Source: Jiangella gansuensis DSM 44835 (GTDB lineage: Bacteria > Actinomycetota > Actinomycetes > Jiangellales > Jiangellaceae). Taken from it: DNA of 64,000 nucleotides. How positions within the stretch are numbered: the first letter of the stretch is position 1; every line of letters starts with the position of its first letter. The translations under genes were made by a program, and so were the position numbers. The stretch lies in the NCBI RefSeq assembly GCF_000515395.1, contig NZ_KI911782.1, forward strand, positions 721,090 to 785,089, written 5' to 3'. Positions 1 through 15,963 of this stretch are shown here, piece by piece. The notes below the pieces were generated by a model that was not told the origin of the DNA, searched no databases, and was given only the letters and a program-made list of their open reading frames with translations.

Positions 1-2
1 TG

Positions 3-272
3 CGGAACGTCCTCGGCCGCCGCGCTACCTACGAAGAGCGCCAGCAGTTCCTGTCGACGTTGCGTGAACAGGAGGAGTCCAGCCCCGGCATCACAACCAC
101 GTCGTACGAGTACGACGGTGAGCAAGGTACTCCGGTCTCCGTGTCGTCTACGACGACGGGCGGCGCCCCGGACGCCGGCACGGCTGCTCAGGCTTGGGCC
201 GATGAGGAACACATGGAAGAGCAGCAAGCGGTTCTGGCTGCGTCGTATCTCGACGTCTTGAAGGGCCTGTGA
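3..272 (+). CDS. Partial phage-element protein, C-terminal 89 residues
   Basis: The reading frame is open from base 3 and its start lies outside the window. The visible part is acidic and rich in Ser, Thr and Glu (EQEESSPG, STTTGGAPDAG), followed by an Ala/Glu helix and the ending SYLDVLKGL. The stop TGA at 270-272 shares one base with the ATG of the next small gene, a tight coupling typical of phage late genes. I recognise no family. A small virion or scaffold-like role is only inferred from the neighbours. Confidence 0.55.
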   Translation, partial: RNVLGRRATYEERQQFLSTLREQEESSPGITTTSYEYDGEQGTPVSVSSTTTGGAPDAGTAAQAWADEEHMEEQQAVLAASYLDVLKGL

Positions 273-403
273 TGGACCTCGATCTAAGGGACCCTGTCGT
301 TGCCCGCGCCGTTGTCACGGCTGGCCTTGCTCACGAGTTAGGCCGCTGGCCTACCAAAGAGGAGATTAAGGCCACGGTGTTGACCTACCTCATCAACAAC
401 TGA
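272..403 (+). CDS. Small 43-residue phage-element protein
   Basis: The ATG overlaps the preceding stop by one base and the frame ends at TGA 401-403, just before an intrinsic terminator. The sequence starts MDLDLRDPVVARAVV and ends TVLTYLINN; it is predicted to be mostly helical, with no membrane segment or cysteine. The overlap with the upstream gene and the terminator directly behind it argue that it is the last gene of a transcription unit. Function unknown; no family recognised. Confidence 0.55.
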   Translation: MDLDLRDPVVARAVVTAGLAHELGRWPTKEEIKATVLTYLINN

Positions 404-416
404 CCTAGCTCACCAG

Positions 417-452
417 AAAGCCCCGGAGATCCACCACTCTCCGGGGCTTTTC
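417..452 (+). terminator. Intrinsic terminator
   Basis: A perfect 10-bp stem, AGCCCCGGAG (419-428) with CTCCGGGGCT (439-448), has a 10-base loop and is followed by TTTTCC. It ends the small-gene unit that stops at 403. Confidence 0.85.
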
Positions 453-487
453 CATGCCCGAAAACAATTTCGAATTGAGTTCATCAC

Positions 488-1852
488 ATGGCTTTCAGAA
501 ACGCTGGCGCGACTCCTGTATCGAGCGTCGTCTCTTCTGTCCAGATTACCCTAGGCTCCAATATTCAGCCGGGTGACATCATCACAGTTGGCGCTAGTTG
601 GCAGGGTAACCACACCTCCAGCACTGGCCTCAACATCTCATCGTCCAATGCTGGAGACTTTGAGGACCTCTCGGGCTGGCAAATCATTGGGTCTGGTGCC
701 GCTCGCCAAGTCTTCAGACGAGTTGCCATCGCCGGGGACGCCAACTCCACCATCACCATCTCCACCAACGGTGGCACGACTGGCCGGGTCATTGCCTTCT
801 ACCACGCGGCCAGTGGCCTTGATTCGACTGCGACGCCGGTTGTGGCCGGCTCTGGTGGAAGCTCGGGCACGGTCCTCGACTTCCCGAGTGCCCAGCCAAC
901 GGAAGGCTGGTCTGGGGGAACCGCTGTCTACCTGGGGATGTACACCGTCACCAGCGGTGGGCAGCCGACGTTCGACGTCGGCTCGTCCGGCACCACAATG
1001 CGCGCTCAGGGAACCACCGTCCATGGTTCGGGTAGCAATTCGGCGGCGCTGGTTGCTGACAAGACGTTCACTGGTGACGCGCAGATTCCCAGCGTCACAA
1101 TGGATTCGGACATCGCAGTACAGAACCGCCTTCAGCTGGTCATCCTCTACCTGGAGAGTGGCGTTCCGAAGCCCATCGCCAACGCCGGCCCGGATCAGAA
1201 CGTTGCCGCAGGCGCCACCGTCAACCTGGATGGCTCGGCTACCGCCAATGGCGGTGCTGGCGCACCGTACACGTGGCAGTGGACCCAGCTCTCCGGGCCG
1301 GCCGTCACGCTGAACGACCCCACGGCGGAGAACCCCAGCTTCACTGCACCCGCCGTGTCCAGCTCGGTGGTTCTCCAGCTCATCGCCACTGATGCGGGCG
1401 CCGTCGCCTCTGACCCCGCCACGGTCACCATCAACGTGCTGGGCGCTGAGGACACGGCGTACCCGAACGCTGACGTGACCGTGGCGAACTGGACGCCGAG
1501 CACAGGCAGCACCATCTGGCCGGTTCTCTCGGACGGCACTGACACCACGTACGCCACGAGTGCAGAGAACCCCAACGGTCAACTGCTTCGAGTCGGGATG
1601 TCTGAACTGACAGACCCGACGTCACCCGACGTCGTCAACCTGACGGTGCGGGCGCGTAAGCGAAGCGCCAGCAGCGGAACGCTGACGGTTCAGCTGATTG
1701 AGGGTGCCAGCACGGTGCGAGCCACGCTGCTCAACGCGCCGCTCCCCGACACCTTCTCCTCGATCCAGCTCAACATCACCCCTGCTGAGTACGACACGGT
1801 GACGGACTGGAATGACGTCGACGTGGTCCTGAGTGTTGAGGCGGCTGCGTGA
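488..1852 (+). CDS. Phage surface or tail protein with PKD/Ig-like domain (454 aa)
   Basis: The N-terminal 220 residues form a beta-rich jelly-roll-like region without a signal peptide (MAFRNAGATPVSSVV...). Residues about 225-320 form a PKD/REJ-type Ig fold with the signatures ANAGPDQNVAAGATVNLDGS, WQWTQLSGP and LQLIATDAG. The last 130 residues (YPNADVTVANW...) look like another beta-sandwich, perhaps carbohydrate-binding. In actinophages, proteins of this layout are minor tail or capsid-decoration proteins that contact the cell surface. That role is inferred here from the absence of a secretion signal and from the phage-like neighbours. The stop overlaps the next ATG (TGATG). Confidence 0.65.
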   Translation: MAFRNAGATPVSSVVSSVQITLGSNIQPGDIITVGASWQGNHTSSTGLNISSSNAGDFEDLSGWQIIGSGAARQVFRRVAIAGDANSTITISTNGGTTGRVIAFYHAASGLDSTATPVVAGSGGSSGTVLDFPSAQPTEGWSGGTAVYLGMYTVTSGGQPTFDVGSSGTTMRAQGTTVHGSGSNSAALVADKTFTGDAQIPSVTMDSDIAVQNRLQLVILYLESGVPKPIANAGPDQNVAAGATVNLDGSATANGGAGAPYTWQWTQLSGPAVTLNDPTAENPSFTAPAVSSSVVLQLIATDAGAVASDPATVTINVLGAEDTAYPNADVTVANWTPSTGSTIWPVLSDGTDTTYATSAENPNGQLLRVGMSELTDPTSPDVVNLTVRARKRSASSGTLTVQLIEGASTVRATLLNAPLPDTFSSIQLNITPAEYDTVTDWNDVDVVLSVEAAA

Positions 1853-1983
1853 TGGGGACCGTGGACCTGAGCCAGTTCGTCCTTACAGTGACCAGGGCCG
1901 ATGAAGAGCCTGCGGCCACCGTCGATCTGTCGCAGTTCATCATCACCGTTACCCCTGCGACAAGCGACGAGGCGGAGTCGTGA
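1852..1983 (+). CDS. 43-residue protein made of two tandem repeats
   Basis: The ATG overlaps the stop of the tail-like gene and the TGA overlaps the GTG of the next gene (GTGA). The whole protein is two copies of one motif: TVDLSQFVLTVTRA near residues 4-17 and TVDLSQFIITVTPA near residues 23-36, joined by an acidic linker. Two short beta-strand motifs in so small a protein suggest an accessory that adds strands to a partner, perhaps the tail-like protein. No family recognised; the partner idea is inference. Confidence 0.55.
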   Translation: MGTVDLSQFVLTVTRADEEPAATVDLSQFIITVTPATSDEAES

Positions 1984-2204
1984 ACCTCGTCCAGTACTGC
2001 GAGACGCACCGGTCCCCGCACTGCAAGCCGTCCAAGTGTCCTGACGTGCGGCTGTACCACTGGCAACCCCTCACCCAGCATGAGGCGAAGTGCCAGGGTC
2101 CGCACTGCTCCAAGACCTTCACGGCCTACCGCTCGACGGCGAAGTACCACGCACCTGCCTGCCGTCAGGCGGCCTACCGAGTCAAGCCGCGGTTGTCACG
2201 CTAA
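1980..2204 (+). CDS. Small Cys/His-rich zinc-finger-like phage-element protein (74 aa)
   Basis: The GTG start overlaps the previous stop by four bases. Six cysteines and several histidines occur in pairs (YCETH, HCKPSKC, CQGPHC, HAPAC), the pattern of a small zinc-binding domain. The C-terminus is basic (AYRVKPRLSR). Such miniature zinc fingers are common in actinophage genomes and usually bind nucleic acid or protein. Metal binding is suggested only by cysteine spacing, and the function is unknown. Confidence 0.55.
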   Translation: MNLVQYCETHRSPHCKPSKCPDVRLYHWQPLTQHEAKCQGPHCSKTFTAYRSTAKYHAPACRQAAYRVKPRLSR

Positions 2205-2218
2205 GACCCCTGGAATCG

Positions 2219-2246
2219 GCTGCCGGGTACTCGCGTGCCCGGCAGC
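2219..2246. repeat. 9-bp hairpin behind the zinc-finger-like gene
   Basis: GCTGCCGGG (2219-2227) pairs perfectly with CCCGGCAGC (2238-2246) across a 10-base loop. No T-run follows, so it is a weak terminator or an RNA-stability hairpin between the 1980-2204 gene and the next unit. Confidence 0.5.
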
Positions 2247-2336
2247 TCCGCCAGGCCCCACCTGACCCCAGGGAGCGCCGGAAACAGGGGGTCTGCTCCC
2301 GACTTAGCGTTACGCCACTATCCCGGAGGGCAGCTC

Positions 2337-2771
2337 ATGAATCGCAAGCTCTCGATGCCGGCCCAGCAGCTCCGCGACTTCGCCGAGTACCTGAGTGTCC
2401 CCGTCCGTGAGGACGGGGCGCTCGTCGTCTGTGCCGAGCTGTGTAGGCCGCCCAGGTGCGGCCACCAAAAGCTCAACGTAACGCCCATGGAGGGAAGCAA
2501 TGATCAGCGGAGTTCTGCACTGTCCACCAGCCACCCCTTGCTGCCGGTGCGGGGAGGAGATCCAGGGCAGGGCGCGGATGGACGGACGGAGTCCGATCCA
2601 TGCGTCGTGCGTGACCCTGAACGAGTGGAACCAGGCCCTCAGGGCCGGCCTGTGGTGGCCGACACCGACGCCCAAGCCGGTGGGAGTGCCGACGTTCTCG
2701 TGGCACGTCGAGGACTACGACGCCACATGGGTCAGTGGTTCGCCCACTGGCGAACCTCCCGAGGAGCCTGA
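2337..2771 (+). CDS. Hypothetical protein; C-terminal part doubtful
   Basis: An ATG with a good ribosome-binding site (GGAGGG, 6 bases upstream) opens a frame beginning MNRKLSMPAQQLRDFAEYL, VREDGALVVCAELC. The first 40 residues read like a real folded protein. After about 2440 the frame runs on for another 330 bases over a second, better supported gene (2500-2808), and its composition there looks like a shadow. Either the true product is short and the frame is now open by chance or mutation, or a one-base indel has removed a stop: the +1 frame has TAA near 2480. No family recognised. Confidence 0.35.
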   Translation: MNRKLSMPAQQLRDFAEYLSVPVREDGALVVCAELCRPPRCGHQKLNVTPMEGSNDQRSSALSTSHPLLPVRGGDPGQGADGRTESDPCVVRDPERVEPGPQGRPVVADTDAQAGGSADVLVARRGLRRHMGQWFAHWRTSRGA

Positions 2772-2808
2772 CGACGTTGCCTATGACGAGGAGCTGATCG
2801 CCGCATGA
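2500..2808 (+). CDS. Small phage-element protein with N-terminal zinc-ribbon-like motif (102 aa)
   Basis: The ATG lies behind GGAGGG at the usual distance, and the TGA overlaps the ATG of the next gene (ATGA). The N-terminus holds clustered cysteines (HCPPATPCCRCGEEI, then IHASC), which could bind a metal. The remainder is Trp- and Pro-rich with an acidic tail (EEPDDVAYDEELIAA). Coupling on both sides supports it as a real gene. Function unknown; the metal site is inferred from spacing only. Confidence 0.55.
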   Translation: MISGVLHCPPATPCCRCGEEIQGRARMDGRSPIHASCVTLNEWNQALRAGLWWPTPTPKPVGVPTFSWHVEDYDATWVSGSPTGEPPEEPDDVAYDEELIAA

Positions 2809-3068
2809 GCAAGCACGCGCCACTCGACGCGGTGCCGAAGCACCGCCAGGTGTTCCTGGTGCGCTGGGTCCTGCCCGGCAGGACCACTCAAGTGAGTTGG
2901 TACGGAACCGAGCACTTCGCCAGAGAGCGCGTCAAGTGGGTAACTGATCCCAGCCGTGGCGGTGAGGCCGCCGTCTACACGGCGGACGTTGGGACGTGGA
3001 TGGCACTGGAGCACGCTCCAGATGCCGACCCCACCGGAAGGAACTTCCGGATGGGAAGAGCGGTGTAA
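2805..3068 (+). CDS. Hypothetical phage-element protein (87 aa)
   Basis: It starts within the stop of the preceding gene (ATGA). It reads MSKHAPLDAVPKHRQVFLVRW and contains VSWYGTEHFARERVKWVTDP, a compact alpha/beta pattern with several aromatic residues and no signal or membrane segment. It is the last plus-strand gene before the element switches to minus-strand genes. No family recognised. Confidence 0.5.
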   Translation: MSKHAPLDAVPKHRQVFLVRWVLPGRTTQVSWYGTEHFARERVKWVTDPSRGGEAAVYTADVGTWMALEHAPDADPTGRNFRMGRAV

Positions 3069-3161
3069 CTGGCCCCTGCACCCTTGGCGGCGCTAGGTCG
3101 TAGCGTCGTGCCCTGAGAGGCCATACGCACGGGGGCGGAGGCCTGGGGCGGTGGGTGGGCA

Positions 3162-3428
3162 TCAACGGGTGAGGTCGCCTTGCCTCAGGATGCGCCACAC
3201 GTCCGATGCCCGCACCCACGCCAAGTCATCGGCGCCCTGATGACCAGCGCCTTCGATCTTGACCATGACGTGTGTCTGCGTCCAACGGATGGCAACTGCC
3301 GGTCGGTAGTGCACGCCGTTGGCCTCGTTGATCAGGCGAACGATGACGGGTATGTGGCCCTGGTTGCGTGGAGGCACGCCCTGTGGCGGCATCTCCTCGT
3401 TCGCATAGTAGAAGTTCGGCGTGGGCAC
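3162..3428 (-). CDS. Hypothetical phage-element protein (88 aa)
   Basis: This minus-strand frame uses a GTG start at 3428 and gives MPTPNFYYANEEMPPQ, then HIPVIVRLINEANGVHYRPAVAI and a C-terminal helix ending ILRQGDLTR. The strand pattern resembles a small SH3- or OB-like barrel, but that is only an impression. No clear ribosome-binding site precedes the GTG, so an internal ATG near residue 13 is possible. It lies downstream of the lipoprotein gene on the same strand and may share its transcript. Confidence 0.45.
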   Translation of the reverse strand: MPTPNFYYANEEMPPQGVPPRNQGHIPVIVRLINEANGVHYRPAVAIRWTQTHVMVKIEGAGHQGADDLAWVRASDVWRILRQGDLTR

Positions 3429-3469
3429 TAGGCCAGAGTAGAACTGGTGTTCGATCCCTGGCCAATGGA

Positions 3470-3772
3470 TCAGCAGACCTCTTCAAGGAACACGACGGCC
3501 ACCCAGTCATGGAACGGGCGGTCGGGCGGGTAGTTCGTCTTCATGGCGTCAACGACGAACTCACCGCCGTATTGCTCGAAGCCGTCGCACATGAGACGGC
3601 GTTCCCCGTCCGAGGCGTGGTCCCACAGGTCCATGAGCATGCTCGCGAACAGCATTTCGCTCTCGCTCATGGGTGGGGTGCTCGGTGGCGGTGGCGGGGT
3701 GCGTTCCGCCTCGATGACGCAGCCCGACAATGCCAGGACAGCAAGCGCTGTCACGAACCCCCGTGCCTTCAT
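3470..3772 (-). CDS. Small lipoprotein of the integrated element (100 aa)
   Basis: The ATG at 3772 follows a G-rich ribosome-binding site. The N-terminus is a lipoprotein signal: basic MKAR, a hydrophobic stretch FVTALAVLALSGC with the lipobox LSGC, so the mature protein would begin at Cys18. A Pro-rich linker and a helical domain of about 65 residues with two further cysteines follow. Prophage-borne lipoproteins often alter the host surface or block superinfection. That is a possible role here, not a demonstrated one. Confidence 0.6.
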   Translation of the reverse strand: MKARGFVTALAVLALSGCVIEAERTPPPPPSTPPMSESEMLFASMLMDLWDHASDGERRLMCDGFEQYGGEFVVDAMKTNYPPDRPFHDWVAVVFLEEVC

Positions 3773-3842
3773 GATGCCCCCCAGCTCATGAACGGATGAC
3801 CCACGCTACAGCGCAGGTCGGACAGAACGTAGACGACGAAGA

Positions 3843-3878
3843 GCCCCGCCCGGTTTACCGCCGGGCGGGGCCTTCTTT
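3843..3878. terminator. Terminator hairpin, possibly bidirectional, behind the integrase gene
   Basis: GCCCCGCCCGG (3843-3853) pairs perfectly with CCGGGCGGGGC (3861-3871) over a 7-base loop. The plus strand continues CTTCTTT and the minus strand CTCTTCG, so it could stop transcripts from the minus-strand integrase unit and others. Confidence 0.7.
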
Positions 3879-3895
3879 GCATTCAGGGTCTGCGG

Positions 3896-4513
3896 TCAGG
3901 CCGTCTGCCAGTCACGAGCGCGCATCGTCTGCACAACATCGGTAGGGCGAAGGTGGTCGACGTACCTACTCGTGATGGCCAGCGAGGCATGACCAAGCTG
4001 GCGCTGGATGCTGTGCACCGGGGTCCCGGTCTCAGCCATGTCGAACGCCAGGCTGTGGCGTAGCCCGTGCGGGTGCACCCTCTTGGCGATCCCGGCCTTC
4101 ATGCCGAGCTTGGCCAGTGCTGCCCGGACGTAGCGGGGCGACATCAGGTCGCCCACGTGGCCCTTCGAGTAGCTGGCGAACACCGGGTGCCGGTGCGTCA
4201 GCCCGAGCTGTGCCCTGCGGTCCAGCCACGCCTGGATCAGGGATGCCGAGTACGGGTCGATCCCCACGAGACGGGACTTGCCGCCCTTCCCGTTGCGCAC
4301 GCGGACGGTGCCCGCGTCCAAGTCCACGTCCTTGGGCAGTAGCGCCAGGGCCTCAGAGATCCGGAGCCCGGAGCCGTAGAGCGTGGCCACCAGGGCACGA
4401 AGCCGGACACCGGAGTTGCTACGCCGGGAGGCGGCGCCCAGCAGGGCGCCAACCTCGGCACGGGTCAACGGTTCCGGTGGGAACCGCATGCCCTTGTTCG
4501 ACGGCGGGGTCAT
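3896..4513 (-). CDS. Tyrosine recombinase/integrase, catalytic domain only (205 aa)
   Basis: The full catalytic set of phage integrases is visible: Arg51 in GSGLRISEAL, Lys79 in GKGGKSR, His149 and Arg152 in HPHGLRHS, His175 in LGHAS and the nucleophile Tyr184 in SRYVDHL. It should cut and rejoin DNA at the attachment sites through a 3'-phosphotyrosine. Family members usually have 300-400 residues with an N-terminal core-binding domain; here only about 15 residues precede the catalytic fold. The ATG sits two bases after the stop of a 28-residue gene whose end supplies the ribosome-binding site (GGAGG), so no longer form begins nearby. It may be a naturally minimal recombinase or may rely on a partner for arm binding. 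Confidence 0.85.
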   Translation of the reverse strand: MTPPSNKGMRFPPEPLTRAEVGALLGAASRRSNSGVRLRALVATLYGSGLRISEALALLPKDVDLDAGTVRVRNGKGGKSRLVGIDPYSASLIQAWLDRRAQLGLTHRHPVFASYSKGHVGDLMSPRYVRAALAKLGMKAGIAKRVHPHGLRHSLAFDMAETGTPVHSIQRQLGHASLAITSRYVDHLRPTDVVQTMRARDWQTA

Positions 4514-4515
4514 GG

Positions 4516-4602
4516 CTACCTCCCGATCAGTGAGGCGGCGACGAACGCCGCCATGCTGATGAAGACGAGGGCCAGGAGCAGGAGCGCAAAGTCCCGGTTC
4601 AT
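4516..4602 (-). CDS. 28-residue single-span membrane peptide upstream of the integrase
   Basis: The ATG at 4602 overlaps the stop of the 45-residue gene (ATGA), and its own TAG lies two bases before the integrase ATG. The product, [20 protein letters not shown] followed by VAASLIGR, is one hydrophobic helix with charged ends: a bare transmembrane span. Its place in a tightly packed three-gene unit argues that it is translated. Function unknown; it may serve mainly to couple translation of the integrase. Confidence 0.5.
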   Translation of the reverse strand: MNRDFALLLLALVFISMAAFVAASLIGR

Positions 4603-4736
4603 CGCTTCAGGTCCTGGAAGGAGACCCGACGGCGCGGCTCCGGCGGTCCAGCCGCTTCGGGGGACCGGGCGAACTCGTCTAGCAGGTAGTACTCGTCGTC
4701 GTGCTCAGGTGCGTCGATGGGGAATACTGCGGACAC
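4599..4736 (-). CDS. 45-residue acidic protein opening the integrase operon
   Basis: The GTG at 4736 has an excellent ribosome-binding site (GGGAGG, about 6 bases before it), and its TGA overlaps the next ATG. The sequence is acidic at the front ([19 protein letters not shown]) and basic at the end ([14 protein letters not shown]). In small actinomycete integrative elements the gene before int is often an excisionase or regulator, but no helix-turn-helix is visible here, so that role is not supported. Function unknown. Confidence 0.5.
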
Positions 4737-4739
4737 GGC

Positions 4740-4932
4740 TGCCTCCCGTAAGGCGGTCGAGGGAGCCAGCGGGGGTGCTTCCCCGCTGGCCTCCCGCTCC
4801 GCTCGAAGGCAATCCCAAATGCTGGCACTGGGAATACGACGAGAGCCTGCTGCCCTGAGGTTCCCCCGCCTGCGGCGAACTCCTGCCGCGAGCGCGGCCC
4901 GGGCGACCCCCGCGCCGCTTACGCTTGGGAGC
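4740..4932. other. Element/host junction; presumed right attachment region
   Basis: All element genes end by 4736 and the first host gene starts at 4933, so the right attachment site should lie here. No tRNA 3' end is visible. A strong imperfect inverted repeat (GGGAGCCAGCGGGG at 4761-4774 with CCCCGCTGGCCTCCC at 4781-4795) could be a recombinase or excisionase site, or a leader hairpin of the integrase operon. Further on, TCCCA and TGGGA flank ATGCTGGCA near 4811-4833. The core cannot be named without the left end. Confidence 0.35.
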
Positions 4933-5850
4933 GTGTCCGAACTGCGCCAGAGTGCTTCCGGGGTGCTGCGCGTTCCCGAATCGCCGGTGGGGCTGTCTAC
5001 GGCGTCGGTGTACCCGCAGGGAGTCGCGACCGCCTTCGAGATGGCGGCGTCGCTGGGTTACGACGGCGTAGAGCTGATGGTCTGGACCGACCCGGTCAGC
5101 CAGGACATCGACCAGGTCCACGATCTGGCGCAGCGCTACGGCATGCCGGTGCTGTCGGTGCACGCGCCGTGCCTGCTGATCACCCAGCGGGTGTGGTCGC
5201 CGGACCCGATGCAGCGGCTCACCCGCTCGCTGGAGGCGGCCAGGCGGCTCGGCTCGTCCACCGTCGTCGTCCACCCGCCCTTTCGCTGGCAGCGCGAGTA
5301 CGCACGCAACTTCGTGGAGACGGTGGCGCGGCTGGAGGACGAGTCCGGCGTCACCATCGCGGTCGAGAACATGTACCCCTGGCGTGCGGCCGGCCGCGAG
5401 GTGGCCGCGTACGCGCCGGACTGGGACCCCACAGACGAGGACTACCGGCACATCACGCTCGATCTGTCGCACGCCGCGGTGGCCGGCATGGATTCACTGG
5501 AGATGGCCGAGTCGCTGGGCGACCGGCTCAGTCACGTGCACATGACCGACGGCACCGGCTCGTCGCGTGACGAGCACCTGATCCCGGGGCGCGGCAAGCA
5601 GCCGTGTTCGGCACTGCTGGAGCGGTTGGCCCGCATCGAGTGGTCCGGGGCGGTCATCCTCGAAGTGACCACCCGCCGGGCGCGCAGCACCGCGGAGCGC
5701 GAGGCGGATCTCGCCGAGGCATTGGCGTTCACCCGGCTCAACCTCGCCGCGTCGGTGCAGACGGCGTTCGCCGTCGGCCCCGACGGCACGGCTCAGATGG
5801 TCGCGCGGGCACGCGAACGCGCCGAAGGCGGCATGACCTCCGGCGCGTGA
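4933..5850 (+). CDS. Sugar phosphate isomerase/epimerase family protein (305 aa)
   Basis: This is a TIM-barrel protein of the xylose isomerase-like/AP endonuclease 2 superfamily. It shows the usual sequence of strands with acid and His ligands: [58 protein letters not shown] and VILEVTTRR. Glu, Asp and His in these motifs normally bind one to three divalent metals. The substrate is not predictable. The GTG at 4933 is chosen because the fold starts just after it and the upstream bases belong to the element junction; TACGCT about 10 bases before may be a -10 box of a leaderless gene. The C-terminus ([17 protein letters not shown]) extends beyond the barrel. Confidence 0.75.
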
Positions 5851-5867
5851 ACAAGCGCCGCCGAGCA

Positions 5868-5920
5868 GCACGGGGGAGATTGCCGCAGGAGAATGCGGTC
5901 GGGCAACCTCCGCCCCGTGC
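5868..5920. terminator. Bidirectional terminator hairpin between convergent genes
   Basis: GCACGGGG (5868-5875) pairs with CCCCGTGC (5913-5920). An inner TTGCC...GGGCAA and CCGC/GCGG pairing makes a long branched hairpin between the plus-strand isomerase gene and the minus-strand secreted-protein gene. No clear U-run. Confidence 0.55.
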
Positions 5921-5965
5921 TCTCAGCTGTCAGGCGTCGAACACCTGGACGGTGTCAGGCAGGGT

Positions 5966-6457
5966 TCAGTTGCCCTGCGGGAGCAGCTGCGTGCCCTCGG
6001 GCAGCAGGTCGAGCAGCTCCTGCTCGGTCAGCTCGTCCAGAGCAACACCCTCCGGCAGCAGCTCGGTCAGCTGCTCCTGCATGTCGGCCGGGATCTCCTC
6101 CGAGCCGTTGCAGGCCTCGTACTCGCCGTACTGGCTGCCCAGCAGGATGTTGAACGGGCCCTGCCAGAACCACGGCAGGATGCAGGCGTTGTCGCCGATG
6201 CTGCTGCCCTCGGTGTCCTCAGCGGCACCGTTGCAGGCCGAGTACGACCCGTCCTGGTTCTCGACCAGGAAGTTGATCGGGCCCTGCCAGAACCAGGGCA
6301 GGACGCAGGCGTTGTTCAGGATGTCGACCTCGGGCAGCGCGTCGGTGCCCGGGACCTCGACACGGTCGGAGCCGGTAGCGGAGGCCGTAGCCCCGAAGCC
6401 GACGCAGGCCGCGAAGGCGACGCCAGCGACGAGAGCGCCGCGCAGTACGTTCTTCAC
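5966..6457 (-). CDS. Secreted protein with two Trp-rich Cys-paired repeats (163 aa)
   Basis: The GTG at 6457 follows GAGGAG. A Sec signal peptide (basic MKNVLR, hydrophobic core, likely cleavage after ATASA at residue 27) precedes two near-identical repeats of about 29 residues: 49-77, with ACVLPWFWQGP and ending SACNG, and 90-118, with ACILPWFWQGP and ending EACNG. In each, two cysteines are 24 residues apart (51/75 and 92/116), as expected of one disulfide per repeat. The tail has Leu-Pro-Glu repeats (LLPEGVALDEL, LLPEGTQLLPQGN). An amphipathic surface-active or cell-wall protein is plausible, rather like chaplins in size and secretion, but the sequence is not a chaplin. No family recognised. 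Confidence 0.6.
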   Translation of the reverse strand: MKNVLRGALVAGVAFAACVGFGATASATGSDRVEVPGTDALPEVDILNNACVLPWFWQGPINFLVENQDGSYSACNGAAEDTEGSSIGDNACILPWFWQGPFNILLGSQYGEYEACNGSEEIPADMQEQLTELLPEGVALDELTEQELLDLLPEGTQLLPQGN

Positions 6458-6886
6458 AACAATACTCCTCGAATGATCACACTGTGTTGCGGGCGGATGG
6501 TGCCGTGATGCGCATCAGCACGACAGCTTTGACGGGTCGAGCGCCTATGTCAAGCGTGTTGTCGGAGAGTCACCTCATTGGTGTGACAGGTCTGGTCGGA
6601 TGTTTCTTCCCGCCGCCGGATTTCGGCCGCCCGAACTGCTGTGTCCTGCGGGTTTGATGCCACCAGTCCCAGTCTGGGGTGGTTTGCGGTGCGCGTTGGT
6701 CATTATCTGACGGCTGTCGGGAATGTGCCGAACCGGCTGCCCAAGCAAAGGCACGTTCCAGAACACCGAATTTCGGTGAGAAAGGGTTCGATCGGCACAT
6801 TGAGGAGTTCTCGTAGCAGGTGCGGAATCGGGCGGCGCTGGATGACGTGTCGCGGCCGGTTGACGCGACGGTGCTGGCAGCGGCAG
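6458..6886. other. Intergenic stretch without a recognised gene
   Basis: Between the divergent secreted-protein and TetR genes I see no credible coding frame; open frames here lack ribosome-binding sites and coding character. Local GC is lower than in the flanks. It should hold the promoters of both genes, but no convincing -35/-10 pair stands out. Confidence 0.4.
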
Positions 6887-6904
6887 ATTCATCGCATGCT
6901 GAAT
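6887..6904. promoter_or_regulatory. Candidate TetR operator 1, upstream of the regulator
   Basis: The 18-bp sequence ATTCATCGCATGCTGAAT has inverted ends ATTCA/TGAAT with an 8-base centre. It matches the site at 7694-7711 at 15 of 18 positions and lies 20 bases before the regulator's GTG, a good place for autorepression. Confidence 0.6.
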
Positions 6905-6924
6905 TGTGTGCCGGTGGGGCCGTC

Positions 6925-7557
6925 GTGACGAGCGAGCCGAGCCGTCGGAAGGGCCGGCCGGCTGGGCGCGGGCGCGCGGGCCGGCGTCGCGGCGCGCCGG
7001 ACACTCGCGGCGAAATCCTGGCTGCCGCCCGTGCCCAGTTCGGCGAGCTCGGCTACGACGGTGCCACGGTCCGGGGCATCGCCGGTGCGGCGGGTGTCGA
7101 TCCGGCTCTCGTGCACCACTATTTCGGTGCCAAGGAGAAGCTCTTCCTGGCCGCCATGGAGATCCCGTTCGACCCGGCGATCATCAGCGAGCGCATCGCC
7201 GACGACTCCGTCGGCATGGGCATCGGCGAGCGGGCGATCCGCACCTTTCTCGGCGTCTGGGGCGATCCCGCCGCGCGGGCGCCCATTCTGGCGATGCTCC
7301 GCTCGGCGATGCGGCACGAGGCCGCGGCCACGCTGCTTCGTCAGTTCATCACCCGGGCCATCCTCGGCCGGGTGCTGGTGGCGTTCGACGGCATTCCCAG
7401 CGGGCCGCTGCGGGCCGAGGCGCTGGCGTCGCACCTGATCGGCCTGGCCATCGTCCGGTACGTGGTGAAGCTCGAGCCGATCGCGTCGGTGTCGGACGAG
7501 GAGCTCATCGCTCTGGTGGCCCCCGTGCTGCAGCAGTACTACGACGGCGCCTTCTGA
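6925..7557 (+). CDS. TetR/AcrR-family regulator (210 aa)
   Basis: The N-terminal helix-turn-helix is typical: TRGEILAAARAQFGELGYDG, then VRGIAGAAGVDPALVHHYFG and KEKLFLAAM, at about residues 25-70. The C-terminal half is an all-helical ligand domain of the kind seen in regulators of ABC-2 exporters. The GTG at 6925 is chosen because it gives a basic arm of normal length before the DNA-binding domain and lies just after operator 1. The ABC exporter genes follow 145 bases downstream on the same strand with a second copy of the operator, so this protein very probably represses itself and the exporter and is released by an exported compound. The ligand is unknown. Confidence 0.85.
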   Translation: MTSEPSRRKGRPAGRGRAGRRRGAPDTRGEILAAARAQFGELGYDGATVRGIAGAAGVDPALVHHYFGAKEKLFLAAMEIPFDPAIISERIADDSVGMGIGERAIRTFLGVWGDPAARAPILAMLRSAMRHEAAATLLRQFITRAILGRVLVAFDGIPSGPLRAEALASHLIGLAIVRYVVKLEPIASVSDEELIALVAPVLQQYYDGAF

Positions 7558-7581
7558 GGTTCCGCGCACCCCGTCGCCAGC

Positions 7582-7653
7582 GTTGATCTTGGAGTAACCG
7601 CGGAAACTTCGTCCGATTCGCCGGATTGATTCCGCGAATATTCCAAGATCAAC
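7582..7653. repeat. Long-range inverted repeat between TetR and ABC genes
   Basis: GTTGATCTTGGA (7582-7593) and TCCAAGATCAAC (7642-7653) are exact reverse complements. Inner segments GCGGAA and TTCCGC also pair, giving a 72-base stem-loop. It could terminate the tetR transcript or be a copy of a dispersed intergenic repeat. Confidence 0.55.
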
Positions 7654-7693
7654 GGGAGGGAGGGCGTTGACGGCTGCCTTGTGCATGCGCGAT

Positions 7694-7711
7694 ATTCAAC
7701 ACATGATGAAT
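7694..7711. promoter_or_regulatory. Candidate TetR operator 2, over the ABC gene start
   Basis: ATTCAACACATGATGAAT repeats the ATTCA-N8-TGAAT layout of operator 1 and covers the ATG ATG start codons at 7703 and 7706. With no ribosome-binding site upstream, the transcript may be leaderless and the operator would sit on the transcription start. Confidence 0.6.
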
Positions 7712-8461
7712 TACGCTTCGAACGCCGCCGCGCCACCGGCGGTGCGGATCCGTGGGCTGCGCGTGGTCCGCGGTGCCCGCACGGTGCTGGACGACTTCGG
7801 GCTGCAGGTCCGCCCCGGCACCCTGACGGGCCTGCTCGGGCCCTCGGGGTCAGGCAAATCGACGCTGATGCGCGCCATCGTCGGCGTGCAGAAGGTGGCC
7901 GGCGGGACCGTCGAGGTCCTCGGCCGCCAGGCCGGTACGCGGGAGCTACGCGACCGGGTCGCCTACGTCACCCAGGCTCCCAGCGTGTATGCCGACCTCA
8001 CCGTCCGGCAGAACCTGCGCTATTACGCCCGGGGGCTGGGGGCTCCGGCCGCGGACGTCGATCGCGCCGTCGACCAGGTCGACCTGGCCTCCCACGCCGA
8101 CCACCTGGTCGGCCGGCTCTCCGGTGGCCAGCGCTCGCGGGTGTCGCTGGCGACGGCCCTGCTGGGAGAGCCGGAGCTCCTAGTGCTCGACGAACCGACC
8201 GTGGGGCTCGACCCGGTGTTGCGGGTCCAGTTGTGGGAGCTGTTCCACCGCCTCGCCGCCGACGGCGCCACGCTGCTGGTGTCCAGCCACGTCATGGACG
8301 AGGCGGAACGCTGCGAGCGGCTCGTCATGCTGCGCGAGGGTGCGCTGTTGGCCGACGACACCCTGGCCGGCCTGCTGGCCCGCACCGGCGCGGCCGACGC
8401 CGAAGGTGCCTTCCTGGAGCTGATCGAGAAGGCGGAGACGACAGAGGAGAGCGGCCGATGA
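7703..8461 (+). CDS. ABC transporter ATP-binding subunit (252 aa)
   Basis: This is the nucleotide-binding subunit of an ABC-2 type exporter. Walker A is GPSGSGKST at about 46-54, the signature LSGGQRSRVSLA is near 148, Walker B is LLVLDEPTVGLDP, and the switch His lies in VSSHVMDEAERC, as in DrrA-like drug or lipid exporters. The tandem ATG at 7703/7706 is preferred; longer forms from 7685 or TTG 7667 would read across operator 2. The stop overlaps the permease start (ATGA), so the two subunits are made together. Substrate unknown; regulation by the upstream TetR protein is strongly suggested. Confidence 0.88.
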   Translation: MMNYASNAAAPPAVRIRGLRVVRGARTVLDDFGLQVRPGTLTGLLGPSGSGKSTLMRAIVGVQKVAGGTVEVLGRQAGTRELRDRVAYVTQAPSVYADLTVRQNLRYYARGLGAPAADVDRAVDQVDLASHADHLVGRLSGGQRSRVSLATALLGEPELLVLDEPTVGLDPVLRVQLWELFHRLAADGATLLVSSHVMDEAERCERLVMLREGALLADDTLAGLLARTGAADAEGAFLELIEKAETTEESGR

Positions 8462-9186
8462 GCCCGCGCATCACCGTGGCCACGGCCACCCGGGTGCTCC
8501 AGCAGTTGCGCCACGATCCGCGGACCATCGCGCTGATGCTCGTGGTCCCGAGCCTGCTCATGGCCCTGCTGTGGTGGATCTACGACGGCGGGCCGCTGTT
8601 CGACCGGATCGGGCCGGCGCTGCTGGCGATCTTCCCGTTCCTGGTCATGTTCCTCGTGACATCCATCGCGACCCTGCGCGAACGCACGTCCGGAACGCTG
8701 GAACGGCTGCTCTCCATGCCCACCGGCAAGCTGGACTTCCTGCTCGGGTACGCGCTGGCGTTCGGCACCGTCGCGCTGGTCCAGGCGATCGTCACGTCGT
8801 CGGTGGCGGTCGGCCTGCTGGACCTGCAGACCGCCGGCCCCACCTGGGTGCTGGTCGCGGTCGCGGTGTTCGACGCCCTCCTCGGCGTCGCGCTCGGCCT
8901 GTTCGTCAGCGCCTTCGCGTCGACGGAGTTCCAGGTGGTCCAGTTCATGCCGGCGCTGGTCCTGCCGCAGTTCCTGCTGTGCGGCCTGCTGGTGCCGCGC
9001 GACCAGCTGCCCGACGTCCTGGAGGTCGTCTCCGACGTGCTCCCACTGTCCTACGCGGTGGACGCGATGAACGAGGTGCAGGCGTACACCGACCCGGCCG
9101 TCTGGGCGCAGCTGGGCGTCGTGCTGGGCTTCTCGGTCGCGCTGCTCGCCCTCGGCGCCGCGACGCTGCGCCGCCGTACCGACTGA
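8458..9186 (+). CDS. ABC-2 type permease subunit (242 aa)
   Basis: An integral membrane partner of the preceding ATPase, with about six hydrophobic spans: ALMLVVPSLLMALLWWI, LLAIFPFLVMFLVTSIA, a span after LDFLLGYALAFG, two in the centre, and a last one before the C-terminal RRRTD. The motif TSGTLERLLSMP after the second span and GLLVPRDQLPDVLEVVSDVLPLSYAVDAM are conserved features of ABC-2 permeases of the DrrB type. The ATG overlaps the ATPase stop. It should form a homodimeric channel with two ATPase subunits. Confidence 0.85.
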   Translation: MSPRITVATATRVLQQLRHDPRTIALMLVVPSLLMALLWWIYDGGPLFDRIGPALLAIFPFLVMFLVTSIATLRERTSGTLERLLSMPTGKLDFLLGYALAFGTVALVQAIVTSSVAVGLLDLQTAGPTWVLVAVAVFDALLGVALGLFVSAFASTEFQVVQFMPALVLPQFLLCGLLVPRDQLPDVLEVVSDVLPLSYAVDAMNEVQAYTDPAVWAQLGVVLGFSVALLALGAATLRRRTD

Positions 9187-9284
9187 CGTCCGGGGTTCCG
9201 GCAAGGCGTGCCGTACCCTGGCGGAGTCCGTGCGGAGCGCAACTGTCGTCCCCGAGGCGACGGACGTGAGGAGAGGGCACCGAC

Positions 9285-10226
9285 GTGGCAGGATCCATGG
9301 TGCGGTCGGCGTTGCTGGGTGCGTCGCACAGCGACCGGTTGCGGCTCGCGGTGGAGCGGTTCCCACTGACCCGTAATCTGGTCGAGCGGTACGTGGCGGG
9401 CACCGAGCAGGCCGACGCGGTCCGCGTCGCCGGTGACCTCGTCGACGACGGGCTGACGGTGACCATCGACCATCTCGGCGAGGACACCCTCGACCGGTCG
9501 CAGGCCACGGCGGTCGCGCAGGCCTACGTGTCGCTGCTCGAGGCGGTGCAGAAGAACGAGTTCGGCGCGGACGTCGAGGTGTCGGTCAAGCTGTCAGCGG
9601 TCGGGCAGGCACTGCCCGGCGACGGCGAGGCCATCGCTCTGGACAACGCACGGCAGATCTGCCAGGCCGCGGCCGACGCCGGCACCACGGTGACCCTCGA
9701 CATGGAGAATCACACCACCACCGACTCCACCCTCGGCATCCTGCGCGAGCTGCGGCAGGACTTCCCGAGCACGGGCGCGGTACTGCAGGCGTACCTCAGG
9801 CGCACCGAGGCCGACTGCCGCGACCTGGCGCACGAGGGCTCGCGGGTGCGGCTGTGCAAGGGCGCCTACAACGAGCCCGAGAGCGTGGCCTTCCAGGACC
9901 GCGGCGAGGTCGACCGGTCCTACGTGCGCTGCATGAAGGTGCTGTTCGGCGGCGAGGGCTACCCGATGATCGCCACCCACGACCCCCGGCTGGTCGAGAT
10001 CGCCGGGTCGCTGGCCGCCCGCCACCGCCGGGAACAGGGCAGCTACGAGTACCAGATGCTCTACGGCATCCGGCCGCGCGAGCAGCGCCGGCTGGTCCGC
10101 GCCGGCGAGAAGGTCCGCGTGTACGTCCCCTACGGCCAGGAGTGGTACGGCTACCTCGTCCGGCGGCTGGCGGAGAAACCGGCCAACCTGGCGTTCTTCC
10201 TTCGATCGGTGGCGAGCAAGAAATGA
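9285..10226 (+). CDS. Proline dehydrogenase (313 aa)
   Basis: A monofunctional FAD enzyme oxidising proline to pyrroline-5-carboxylate, the first step of proline breakdown. Seen: a TIM-barrel with VSVKLSAVG, TVTLDMENHTTTDSTL, LQAYLRRTEADC, VRLCKGAYNEPE, MIATHDPRLVEIA and the C-terminal substrate helix YGYLVRRLAEKPANLAFFLRS, whose paired arginines bind the proline carboxylate in this family. Length is normal for the short actinobacterial type. The GTG at 9285 follows GGAGAGGG. Its stop overlaps the start of proC, so an enzyme that consumes proline and one that makes it are co-translated. Confidence 0.88.
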   Translation: MAGSMVRSALLGASHSDRLRLAVERFPLTRNLVERYVAGTEQADAVRVAGDLVDDGLTVTIDHLGEDTLDRSQATAVAQAYVSLLEAVQKNEFGADVEVSVKLSAVGQALPGDGEAIALDNARQICQAAADAGTTVTLDMENHTTTDSTLGILRELRQDFPSTGAVLQAYLRRTEADCRDLAHEGSRVRLCKGAYNEPESVAFQDRGEVDRSYVRCMKVLFGGEGYPMIATHDPRLVEIAGSLAARHRREQGSYEYQMLYGIRPREQRRLVRAGEKVRVYVPYGQEWYGYLVRRLAEKPANLAFFLRSVASKK

Positions 10227-11029
10227 CGACTGCGATCCTCGGGGCCGGAGTCATGGGCGAGGCCCTGCTGTCCGGCCTGGTGCAGGCCGGGCGGCAGGTC
10301 TCCGAACTCCTGGTCACCGACCGGCGGCCGGAGCGCGCGGCCGAGCTGACCGAGCGGTACGGCGTCGAGGTGGTCACCAACCCCACCGCGGTGAAGCGCG
10401 CCGACACCGTCGTCATCGTGGTGAAGCCGCAGGACATGGGTTCCCTGCTGGACGAGGTCGCCGAGGCTGCCCGGCCCGGTCAGCTGTTCGTGTCGCTGGC
10501 AGCCGGCATCACCACCGCCTACATCGAGTCCCGGCTGCCCAGCGGAGTGGCCGTCGTCCGGGTGATGCCCAACACCCCGGCGCTGGTCGACGAGGGCATG
10601 GCGGCCATCTCCGCCGGCTCCCACTGCGACGAGGCCCACCTCCGCGAGGCCGAGGACCTCATGCGCTCCACCGGCAAGGTGCTACGGGTGCCGGAGAAGC
10701 AGCAGGATGCCGTCACAGCGATCTCCGGCTCCGGTCCGGCGTACGTCTTCTACGTCGTCGAGGCGATGATCGAGGCCGGCGTGCACATGGGCCTGCCACG
10801 GGCCACCGCGACCGAGTTCGTCGTGCAGACGCTGGTCGGCTCGGCCAAACTGCTGCGCGAGACCGGTGAACACCCGACCGTCCTGCGGGAGCGGGTGACG
10901 TCGCCGGGCGGCACCACGGCGGCGGCGCTGCGGCTGCTGGAAGAGGGCCGCGTGCGGGCGGACTTCCTGGCCGCGATGGAGGCCGCGAGGGATCGCTCGC
11001 GCGAACTGTCCTCGGGCGAGCCCGTGTGA
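10223..11029 (+). CDS. proC: Pyrroline-5-carboxylate reductase (268 aa)
   Basis: It reduces pyrroline-5-carboxylate to proline with NAD(P)H, the last step of proline synthesis. The Rossmann signature is AILGAGVMGEALLSGL at the N-terminus, followed by VVIVVKPQDM and VRVMPNTPALVDEGMAAIS. The C-terminal dimer and active-site helix has DAVTAISGSGPAYVFYVVEAM and VTSPGGTTAAALRLLEEG, the P5CR signature. Length matches the family. The ATG lies inside the stop of proline dehydrogenase (ATGA). Confidence 0.93.
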   Translation: MTTAILGAGVMGEALLSGLVQAGRQVSELLVTDRRPERAAELTERYGVEVVTNPTAVKRADTVVIVVKPQDMGSLLDEVAEAARPGQLFVSLAAGITTAYIESRLPSGVAVVRVMPNTPALVDEGMAAISAGSHCDEAHLREAEDLMRSTGKVLRVPEKQQDAVTAISGSGPAYVFYVVEAMIEAGVHMGLPRATATEFVVQTLVGSAKLLRETGEHPTVLRERVTSPGGTTAAALRLLEEGRVRADFLAAMEAARDRSRELSSGEPV

Positions 11030-11036
11030 CGTCACC

Positions 11037-12212
11037 ATGACGCACGCCGTGCACGTCGCCTGGGACGAGTCGCTGACCAGCTACGACTTCGGGGACGGAC
11101 ATCCGCTGAACCCGTTGCGAGTCGACCTGACCATCCGGCTCGCGCGCGAGCTGGGTGTGCTGGACCGCCCAGGTGTGCACGTCGCCGCGCCGCAGCCGGC
11201 CGACGACGCCAGCCTCCGCACGGTGCACACGTCCGACTACATCGCGGCGGTGCGCGCGGCCGAACCGCACACCGTCGACGTCGCGCACGGGCTCGGCACC
11301 ACGGACGACCCCTGCTTCGCCGGCATGCACGACGCCAGTGCGCTGGTGGCGGGCGGCACCATCGAGGCGGCGCGGGCAGTGTGGTCCGGCACGGCCAGCC
11401 ACGGCGTGAACGTGGCCGGTGGCCTGCACCACGCCATGCCGTCCGCTGCGTCCGGGTTCTGCGTCTACAACGACCCGGCGCTGGGCATCCGGGCGCTGCT
11501 CGATGCCGGCGCCGAGCGGGTCGCGTACGTCGACGTGGACGTCCACCACGGTGACGGCGTCCAGGCGGTGTTCTACGACGACCCCCGGGTGCTGACCATC
11601 AGCCTGCACGAGTCACCGCGGACGCTGTTCCCGGGCACCGGCTACCCGGAGGAGACCGGCGGTCCGGGCGCGGAGGGCAGTGCCGTGAACGTCGCGCTGC
11701 CGCCCGGCACCACCGACCGGGGCTGGCTGCGTGCCTTCCACGCCGTCGTGCCGCCGCTGCTGCGTACGTGGCGTCCGCAGATCCTCGTCACGCAGCACGG
11801 CTGCGACAGCCACGTCGAGGACCCGCTGGCGCATCTCGCCCTCACTGTCGACGGGCAGCGCGAGTCGTACCGGCTGCTGCACGAGCTGGCGCACGAGCTG
11901 TGCGACGGGCGCTGGGTCGCCACCGGTGGCGGCGGCTACGCGCTCATCGAGGTGGTGCCTCGGGCATGGACCCACCTGCTGGCCATCGCCGCGGAGAGCC
12001 CGATCGACCCGGCGACGGCCACCCCGCAGGCCTGGCGCGACCACGTCATGGCCCGCTACGCCCGCCGCGCCCCGTCGCGGATGACCGACGGCGCGGAGCT
12101 GTCGTTCCCCGACTGGTCGGACGGATACGACCCCGCCGACTGGCTGGACAAGGCCGTCGTCGCCACCCGCACCGCCGTCTTCCCCCTGCACGGCATCGAC
12201 CCGTCCTTCTGA
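11037..12212 (+). CDS. acuC: AcuC-type histone-deacetylase-fold deacetylase (391 aa)
   Basis: A zinc-dependent class I HDAC-like hydrolase. In Bacillus and actinobacteria AcuC removes acetyl groups from lysines such as that of acetyl-CoA synthetase. The catalytic features are present: the His pair region GGLHHAMPSAASGFCVYND, the metal ligands in VAYVDVDVHHGDGVQAVFYDD, LTISLHESP, ILVTQHGCDSHVEDPLAHL and TGGGGYA. Length is as expected. It begins 7 bases after proC and probably shares its transcript. The true substrate is not shown by the sequence. Confidence 0.85.
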   Translation: MTHAVHVAWDESLTSYDFGDGHPLNPLRVDLTIRLARELGVLDRPGVHVAAPQPADDASLRTVHTSDYIAAVRAAEPHTVDVAHGLGTTDDPCFAGMHDASALVAGGTIEAARAVWSGTASHGVNVAGGLHHAMPSAASGFCVYNDPALGIRALLDAGAERVAYVDVDVHHGDGVQAVFYDDPRVLTISLHESPRTLFPGTGYPEETGGPGAEGSAVNVALPPGTTDRGWLRAFHAVVPPLLRTWRPQILVTQHGCDSHVEDPLAHLALTVDGQRESYRLLHELAHELCDGRWVATGGGGYALIEVVPRAWTHLLAIAAESPIDPATATPQAWRDHVMARYARRAPSRMTDGAELSFPDWSDGYDPADWLDKAVVATRTAVFPLHGIDPSF

Positions 12213-12547
12213 ACCGGCGGGCGGGCCTGAGCCGGGCGAGACCGCCGCGCCGTGGCGCCGCCGCCAAGCAAGCCGTCGGGTGAGGGATGCCGGCCAGGGG
12301 TTCGGTCGGGCATCGGGGGTGAGGGACGAGCCCCCGCGGGCGGGGACGGCATTCCTCACCCGACGGCGCAACCAGCGGCACCACGAGCGACCAAACATCA
12401 CGAGAACGGATCAATCCGGGCGGGCGGCGAGTTCACTTCCCCATCCCCCTTTCCCATCCGTCACATCCGCCACTACCATCGAGGTCAGTAGCGATGCCGA
12501 CCACGCGCGCCCGACCAATGGCGACGCCGGCACGTCGTGGAGGGGCG
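12213..12547. other. Intergenic region holding a large inverted repeat
   Basis: No coding frame is credible in these 335 bases. They contain the 94-base inverted-repeat element at 12273-12366 and should contain the promoter of the small DNA-binding protein gene, though no clear -35/-10 pair is seen. Confidence 0.5.
12273..12366. repeat. 94-bp element with 20-bp inverted ends
   Basis: CCGTCGGGTGAGGGATGCCG (12273-12292) and CGGCATTCCTCACCCGACGG (12347-12366) are reverse complements at 19 of 20 positions. Inside, a second hairpin pairs GGGGG with CCCCC. It could end acuC transcription, or be a short repeat element of the REP or MITE kind. Confidence 0.6.
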
Positions 12548-12766
12548 ATGACGACCAACGGACCGGAAGCACCACTCGGAGAGGTGCGCTTCCTCACCGT
12601 CGCCGAGGTGGCGACGGCCATGAGGGTGTCGAAGATGACGGTGTATCGCCTGGTCCATGCCGGCACGTTGCCCGCGGTCCAGGTGGGCCGGTCCTTCCGC
12701 ATCCCCGAGAGCGCGGTGCACGAGTACCTGCGCGAGTCGTATGTGCGGGGCATGCAGGCCGGCTGA
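12548..12766 (+). CDS. Small BldC/excisionase-like helix-turn-helix protein (72 aa)
   Basis: A one-domain MerR-type winged helix: RFLTVAEVATAMRVSKMTVYRLVHAG, then LPAVQVGRSFRIPESAVHEYLRESYV. This is the fold of BldC and phage excisionases, which bind DNA cooperatively. The ATG at 12548 is chosen for its ribosome-binding site (GGAGGGG); a longer form from 12494 would add a poorly conserved basic stretch. Its place directly before the bS22 gene is a conserved actinobacterial arrangement, so it is a chromosomal regulator and not a stray excisionase. Targets unknown. Confidence 0.8.
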   Translation: MTTNGPEAPLGEVRFLTVAEVATAMRVSKMTVYRLVHAGTLPAVQVGRSFRIPESAVHEYLRESYVRGMQAG

Positions 12767-12917
12767 AACATCACGATTGGACGACGCACCGGACCTGCCG
12801 GGTACTCTTACGCCAGTGCGCGCGCCCGTCGTGCGTGGCAGGTACCAGTCCGCGGGCCACGTCAACGGCCGGCGAGTGGACAACCGACTGACCGTTATTG
12901 ACGAGTGAGGGTGCCCT

Positions 12918-13019
12918 GTGGGCTCTGTGATCAAGAAGCGCCGTAAGCGGATGGCGAAGAAGAAGCACCGTAAGCTCCTGCGCCGCACGCGAGTGCAGCG
13001 TCGCCGCATGGGCAAGTAA
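12918..13019 (+). CDS. 30S ribosomal protein bS22 (AURKAIP1/COX24 domain, 33 aa)
   Basis: A 33-residue, extremely basic peptide: [20 protein letters not shown] followed by [13 protein letters not shown]. It closely matches from memory the small protein found in mycobacterial 30S subunits and named bS22, which sits near the decoding region. The GTG start has a GAGGG ribosome-binding site at a normal distance. The product is too short for most gene finders. The order helix-turn-helix gene, bS22, epimerase is conserved in actinobacteria. Confidence 0.88.
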
Positions 13020-13029
13020 GCAGCTACAC

Positions 13030-13046
13030 GCGGGCTTCGTGCCCGC
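13030..13046 (+). terminator. Hairpin after the bS22 gene
   Basis: GCGGGC (13030-13035) pairs with GCCCGC (13041-13046) over TTCGT, starting 10 bases after the stop codon. There is no U-run, as is common for actinobacterial terminators. Confidence 0.5.
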
Positions 13047-13082
13047 ACTCGGGGGAGTACGCGCGGCGGAGAGCGGGGCACG

Positions 13083-15024: not shown

Positions 15025-15038
15025 CCTCGGCGGCCGGC

Positions 15039-15908: not shown

Positions 15909-15963
15909 GGTCGCCCAGCCTAGCGGCGCCCGGCCCGTCCCCGCCCGCCACTACTCTGGAGTC

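Follow-up and report, generated by a model that had tools for sequence, protein, structure and literature searches.

Function of a secreted repeat protein in Jiangella gansuensis

We analysed a 64,000-nucleotide stretch of the genome of the desert actinomycete Jiangella gansuensis DSM 44835 (contig NZ_KI911782.1, positions 721,090 to 785,089; hereafter, the window) in which a short gene, here called S, encodes a predicted secreted protein with two Trp-rich, Cys-paired repeats. The question raised by this locus is what such a protein does for the organism. A first-pass annotation of the DNA had suggested a wall-associated, surface-active or membrane-active peptide.

S is a conserved protein with two repeat units

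The S open reading frame (Table 1) is real, conserved and under purifying selection. Its product starts with MKNVLRG, followed by a hydrophobic stretch and an A-x-A site that by eye resemble a signal peptide, and it carries the motifs ACVLPWFWQGP and ACILPWFWQGP, two repeat ends of the form xACNG, and LLPEG, LLPEG and LLPQG in the tail. The cysteines of each repeat (residues 51 and 75, and 92 and 116) are 24 apart; a fifth, residue 18, lies within the predicted signal peptide. None of the four mature cysteines is missing from any of 14 orthologues, of which 12 belong to the genus and two to a second one. Across 66 pairs of the 12 same-genus genes the median dN/dS was 0.34 for the whole gene, 0.22 for the repeats and 0.55 for the tail. 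Because the mature cysteines are conserved and the overall and repeat values are those of purifying selection, the repeats are not a product of chance. The first-pass description of a secreted protein with two Trp-rich, Cys-paired repeats followed by Leu-Pro-Glu motifs is borne out by this reading frame, and both the signal peptide and the cysteines persist in homologs. The repeat length of 29 residues given there needs correction, as the aligned unit has 38 residues and a usual period of 41-43.

Table 1. Features of the S locus and of its paralog L. Positions are those of the window unless marked otherwise; repeat-unit positions are those of locus L001 shifted by 4468.
Feature	Position	Strand	Remarks
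S gene, secreted two-unit protein, 163 aa	5966..6457	-	GTG start; stop at 5966-5968
S signal peptide (predicted), residues 1-28	6374..6457	-	by inspection; similar start in 14 orthologues
S repeat unit 1, 38 residues, Cys51-Cys75	6227..6340	-	unit alignment
S repeat unit 2, 38 residues, Cys92-Cys116	6104..6217	-	unit alignment
S C-terminal tail, LLPEG/LLPQG motifs	5969..6094	-	least constrained part, median dN/dS 0.55
S ribosome-binding site GAGGAG	6465..6470	-	
Palindrome TGATGCGCATCA	6506..6517	.	between promoter-like block and S; core GATGCGCATC in 14/14 genomes
Promoter-like block GGTGACTC...CTTGACAT	6547..6574	-	conserved; upstream of S
Phage integrase	3896-4513	-	at the window end of the inserted element
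L gene, 505 aa	G000:C1:703204-704721		outside the window; about 16 kb left of its first base, about 22 kb from S

In 14 of 14 genomes the region upstream of S contains GGTGACTC, the word CTTGACA and the palindrome core GATGCGCATC. The word CTTGACA likewise precedes the paralog L (described below) in 10 of 10 genomes, and GGTGACTC and GATGCGCATC were absent there in all 10. What is common to the two genes is a single short word, and we do not claim shared regulation of S and L. A TetR regulator gene adjoins S (about 6913-7557).

The repeat unit has no named counterpart in the libraries searched

The conserved unit of 38 aligned residues was defined from 53 units in 13 S and L proteins, a subset of those found. 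Its period was 41-43 residues in 24 of 35 neighbor spacings from nine S and L proteins, and the remaining spacings ranged from 44 to 100. In all 53 units the cysteines are 24 residues apart, a distance that the picking pattern left free within 7 residues; the pattern itself demanded C, PW, W, GP and N, and this stricter version dropped no unit that a looser pattern showed in those 13 proteins. Positions C12, P15, W16, W18, G20, P21, N23, Y33 and C36 are invariant (53/53), all but Y33 being demanded by the pattern, and N9 (51/53), Q29 (50/53) and N37 (48/53) are nearly so. The Asn residues at positions 9, 23 and 37 are thus 14 apart, and in the single protein analysed for this property, the L protein of J. 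gansuensis, Asn recurred at lag 14 18 times versus 2.9 times in shuffled sequences. A series of strand-turn elements would be in keeping with such spacing. In composition the unit is acidic (176 Asp/Glu and 6 Lys/Arg in 2014 residues), and its hydropathy is neutral (GRAVY -0.06).

Searches with the unit and S against Pfam, NCBIfam and the PDB returned nothing above cut-off, which agrees with the earlier remark that no characterized family has this motif; L was searched against Pfam and NCBIfam, and no carbohydrate-binding family matched the unit, S or L in the libraries used. Rows for Il13Ra_Ig, EipA, Bactofilin, pullulanase and Sdr/Clf were rejected, as all fell below cut-off and some lay on low-complexity stalks. 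AlphaFold models were poor for both S (mean pLDDT 35.9) and the L array (46.8). Repeated strands appear in the latter, low-confidence model, and of the 28 matches that Foldseek listed up to E 10, none reached E 0.001, so the list was set aside. Literature searches by the unit core sequence and by Jiangella combined with chaplin, sortase or genome/surface protein found nothing. Among RNA features, Rfam gave nothing at gathering score in window positions 1-16000 and ARAGORN gave nothing in the window. As far as searched, the unit appears to be an unnamed repeat domain.

A paralog with six units carries a sorting signal

The first-pass annotation had proposed a search for multi-repeat homologs, and one was found in the same genome. 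The paralog L begins with a signal peptide that by eye is like that of S. Six units follow, then an acidic stalk (EVDGTE), and the protein closes with LPDTG, a hydrophobic segment and Arg residues. Of three L proteins scanned, two exceeded the 15.9-bit cut-off of the LPXTG model TIGR01167 (16.4 and 24.2 bits); the model was not listed for the third, L041, in which LPDTG is present by inspection. The Pfam model Gram_pos_anchor scored 12.1 bits on L, under its cut-off of 20. With its signal peptide, LPXTG motif, hydrophobic segment and basic tail, L is predicted to be a sortase substrate. The J. gansuensis genome encodes five sortases, and the two that were scanned are both class E; a class E sortase of Actinoplanes appears to use LPVTG (PMC13251363).

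S and L are found across the Jiangellaceae

With S as the query, 19 of 60 genomes matched: all 12 of the genus (its own included), seven of the 10 other family members and none of the 38 from other families. Among the 22 Jiangellaceae genomes, S is present in 19 and L in 17, and three have neither. Two of the 19 (G019 and G020) have S without L, because the only unit matches there are the three units of S. A profile of the unit matched 21 of 393 genomes of the class, comprising the same 19, a chance match (G145) and one real distant genome (G329), and two of 396 genomes in a sample of the phylum, namely its own genome and another chance match. When the frames of the distant matches were read, those in G145, G431, G059 and G268 were rejected as chance matches of 13-19 residues each, and that in G121/G177, in a transport-protein-like frame, was rejected likewise; six further weak matches were rejected on length alone (13-19 residues each). 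A scan of genome contigs with Jiangella-like patterns, which would miss the distant form of the unit described below, matched 119 stretches, of which 24 at 19 loci encode relatives in Jiangella, Haloactinopolyspora, Phytoactinopolyspora and one metagenome-assembled genome.

The two genes are convergent and 4-6 kb apart in nine of the 17 genomes that have both, and the genes between them in one such locus (L052) are of housekeeping type by inspection. Three Phytoactinopolyspora genomes have S and L on different contigs, and because both genes sit well away from the contig ends they are not neighbors there; in four genomes they are on separate contigs near contig ends and may or may not be neighbors. 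The J. gansuensis sequence ceases to be collinear with that of two relatives at about window position 4889 and at position 10082 of locus L035, leaving a gap of about 17.9 kb. The inserted element (window 1-4889, plus L035 from 10082) is absent from both Jiangella relatives and separates the genes, which is why S and L are 22 kb apart in this genome. It sits at the 3' end of an M15-type-peptidase-like gene, named by inspection, and includes a gene for a 454-aa protein with a PKD domain (PF22352; window 488-1852, plus strand). In a separate genome (G010), an L gene lies near both ends of the 7.49 Mb contig C1 in the same orientation (L047 and L050); this doubling probably reflects overlapping contig ends that the assembly did not resolve.

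The first units of S and L in Phytoactinopolyspora are 82% alike (9 comparisons), and all six of them carry P for Q at position 19. Unit 1 of L is 58% alike between genera. For Jiangella and Haloactinopolyspora the figure for S against L is only 54%, and the first unit of S is closer to the first unit of S in the other genus (64%). Because the likeness of the two first units is not general, recombination or lineage-specific duplication may be the whole story, and a duplication of the latter kind could lie behind the 82% value.

One-unit relatives occur in a genus that has chaplins

We searched the family of the distant genome, G329, with its unit-bearing proteins and matched 24 of 297 genomes. 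Four genomes of one genus, g122 (G329, G827, G846 and G863), gave four to five strong matches each, to secreted tandem proteins of about 70-81 aa with a single unit core, C-x3-PWNWEG...Y-x-A-C, after the signal peptide. With hhalign, the unit aligned to this g122 family at 96.5% (E 7e-10), a score reached by none of 60 column shuffles. The profile found no multi-unit member in G329. The g122 proteins are the only relatives of the unit found outside the Jiangellaceae. Matches in the other 20 genomes were weak, and the loci of genus g39 read there belong to a different family. These g39 genes (L145-L163; 11 loci read) encode tandem secreted proteins, mostly of 81-107 aa, with two Cys and NQNLQxVPVQLCNT...CVNGP. 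We rejected this family as a bridge, as its matches to the G329-type proteins lie mainly in the signal peptide and hhalign related it to neither the unit nor the g122 proteins and gave just 6% with chaplins.

All six genomes of genus g122 have chaplins, and therefore the unit is no chaplin replacement there. The chaplin-type proteins in the four genomes read (L198-L201) have 3-4 units, a long acidic stalk and LPVTG or LPLTG, which is more units than the two of the long chaplins of S. coelicolor (PMC3079736).

Jiangellaceae genomes lack detectable chaplins

Of the means that filamentous actinomycetes use to break through a water surface, chaplins are the best known. The chaplin model PF03777 exceeded its cut-off in none of the 22 family genomes and gave no row for the S and L proteins scanned; the same search passes the cut-off in 39 of 197 genomes of the class. 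One sub-threshold match in the family (19.4 bits) was rejected, as it lies in an antisense frame and contains no Cys. In hhalign comparisons the unit reached 0.4% against Streptomyces chaplins and 0.2% against the chaplins of the family to which g122 belongs, scores that 28 and 40 of 60 column shuffles also reached, while the Streptomyces and other-family chaplin sets reached 97.6% against each other. The chaplin domain has three GN motifs 12-13 residues apart (PMC13251363). In the unit, Gly precedes N9 in only 18 of 53 cases, F, V, A, I or L precedes N23, and Cys precedes N37.

A possible coat of the hyphae

We tentatively propose that S and L form a chaplin-analogous coat on the hyphae in which S co-assembles with L, a reading that we favor while holding it somewhat short of probable. 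L would be exported, its LPDTG cut by a sortase and the protein joined to peptidoglycan, so that the acidic stalk would hold six Trp/Asn-rich units, each closed by a putative disulfide, off the wall. S would be exported as free two-unit (or three-unit) molecules, and its units would associate with those of L and with each other, like to like. The assembly would then be an amphipathic coat that takes the role of short and long chaplins without being made of chaplins. The host forms aerial mycelium (PMC5292007), and the strain is reported as non-sporulating.

Several observations count toward such a coat: S and L share one unit, L has a sorting signal, the genes are close together in about half of the genomes with both, the family lacks chaplins above cut-off although J. 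gansuensis forms aerial mycelium, five sortases are encoded in its genome, chaplins too come in long and short forms and have multi-unit members with acidic stalks in the family of g122, the first units are most alike in Phytoactinopolyspora, and Asn recurs at lag 14. Against it we count that the unit is not hydrophobic, that S occurs without L in two genomes, that three family genomes have neither, that the genes are unlinked in three Phytoactinopolyspora genomes, that the likeness of first units is not general, that the Pfam anchor model stayed below cut-off and TIGR01167 was not listed for L041, that the structure models were poor and gave no fold match at E 0.001, that g122 has chaplins of its own, and that the strain is reported as non-sporulating. 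The proposal of wall association has gained support, if indirectly, through the six-fold presence of the unit in a protein with a sorting signal; S may be surface-active, with a unit that is acidic and neutral in hydropathy. More speculatively, and with less confidence than the coat itself, we suggest that the Jiangellaceae evolved, independently of chaplins, a wall-anchored and secreted coat of a new disulfide-closed Trp/Asn fold that allows aerial growth, with the one-unit relative in g122 serving as an accessory coat protein.

A wall-anchored adhesin would account for the same facts almost as well, although we consider it unlikely. Here the unit would be a small module binding glycans or wall polymers, with Trp and Asn stacking on sugars; L would display six modules on its acidic stalk for avidity, and S would be a soluble cross-linker or competitor. 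The polar, acidic, Trp-bearing composition fits this function better than it fits a coat, and Y33 is invariant in all 53 units (as are W16, W18 and N23, though these were required by the pattern). The D-repeat stalk of one Phytoactinopolyspora L matches MSCRAMM models, in the stalk only and far below cut-off, and chaplins themselves aid the attachment of mycelium to surfaces (PMC4255298). However, no carbohydrate-binding family was matched, and the relatives found in g122 occur as free single units encoded by tandem genes, an arrangement that suits an assembled coat better. We prefer the coat because of these free tandem units and because the host grows aerially and lacks chaplins.

Common ancestry with chaplins, diverged past sequence detection, would explain the common plan: the same two forms, two Cys per unit, a multi-unit anchored member with an acidic stalk, and three evenly spaced Asn per unit that recall the three GN turns of chaplins. 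We regard it as improbable given that the unit aligned to chaplins no better than its shuffles did, while the chaplin sets readily found each other, and that its cysteine spacing differs from theirs. The membrane-active or antimicrobial peptide of the first-pass annotation, with L as an immobilized form, draws on a secreted, Trp-rich, Cys-paired S adjoined by an ABC-2 type transporter (one pair among the four neighbors scanned) and the TetR regulator, but is very improbable for a unit so poor in Lys and Arg that has an anchored six-unit paralog, is kept under purifying selection by nearly the whole family, and has no recognized immunity gene among those four neighbors.

S is of greater interest when taken together with L than as a peptide on its own. 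The S/L proteins are a candidate coat for a family in which no chaplin exceeded the cut-off, and they may show how chaplin-less filamentous bacteria cover their hyphae; if this is true, solutions to aerial growth would be convergent. The unit in addition contributes an unnamed repeat domain to sequence libraries.

Comparison with known surface proteins

The L protein L041 resembles the MSCRAMM proteins of the Sdr/Clf type in having an acidic repeat stalk ahead of LPXTG. The likeness is confined to the low-complexity stalk (residues 343-478; 65-74 bits versus cut-offs of 999-2500), and no A domain was matched. CwpA and CwpB of Actinoplanes missouriensis are hydrophobic sortase substrates without chaplin domains that shape development (PMC13251363). 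They set a precedent for hydrophobic surface proteins that have no chaplin domain and, as is predicted for L, depend on a sortase in a filamentous actinomycete; unlike L, they come with no such repeat or secreted short partner in the description available from that source, and the comparison is one of descriptions rather than sequences (PMC13251363). The tandem proteins of g122 share with S one copy of the unit core behind a signal peptide. They differ in having a single unit and four to five gene copies, in a genus that also has chaplins.

Chaplins come in two lengths, the short ones secreted and the long ones anchored by sortase (PMC3079736). S and L likewise present one small unit in a short secreted and a long, apparently anchored form, a likeness of architecture only. 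There are two Cys per unit in both (53/53 here, both demanded by the picking pattern), and Lys and Arg are almost missing from both (1 of 656 residues in chaplins, 6 of 2014 in the unit). In contrast, the 16 chaplin domains compared have a GRAVY of +0.66 versus -0.06 for the Trp-bearing, acidic unit, and their cysteines are 18 apart in the Streptomyces chaplins aligned versus 24 in the unit. Profile similarity is absent, and L has six units with LPDTG while S itself has 2-3. Neither in sequence nor in hydrophobicity does the unit resemble a chaplin, and the plan alone is common to both.
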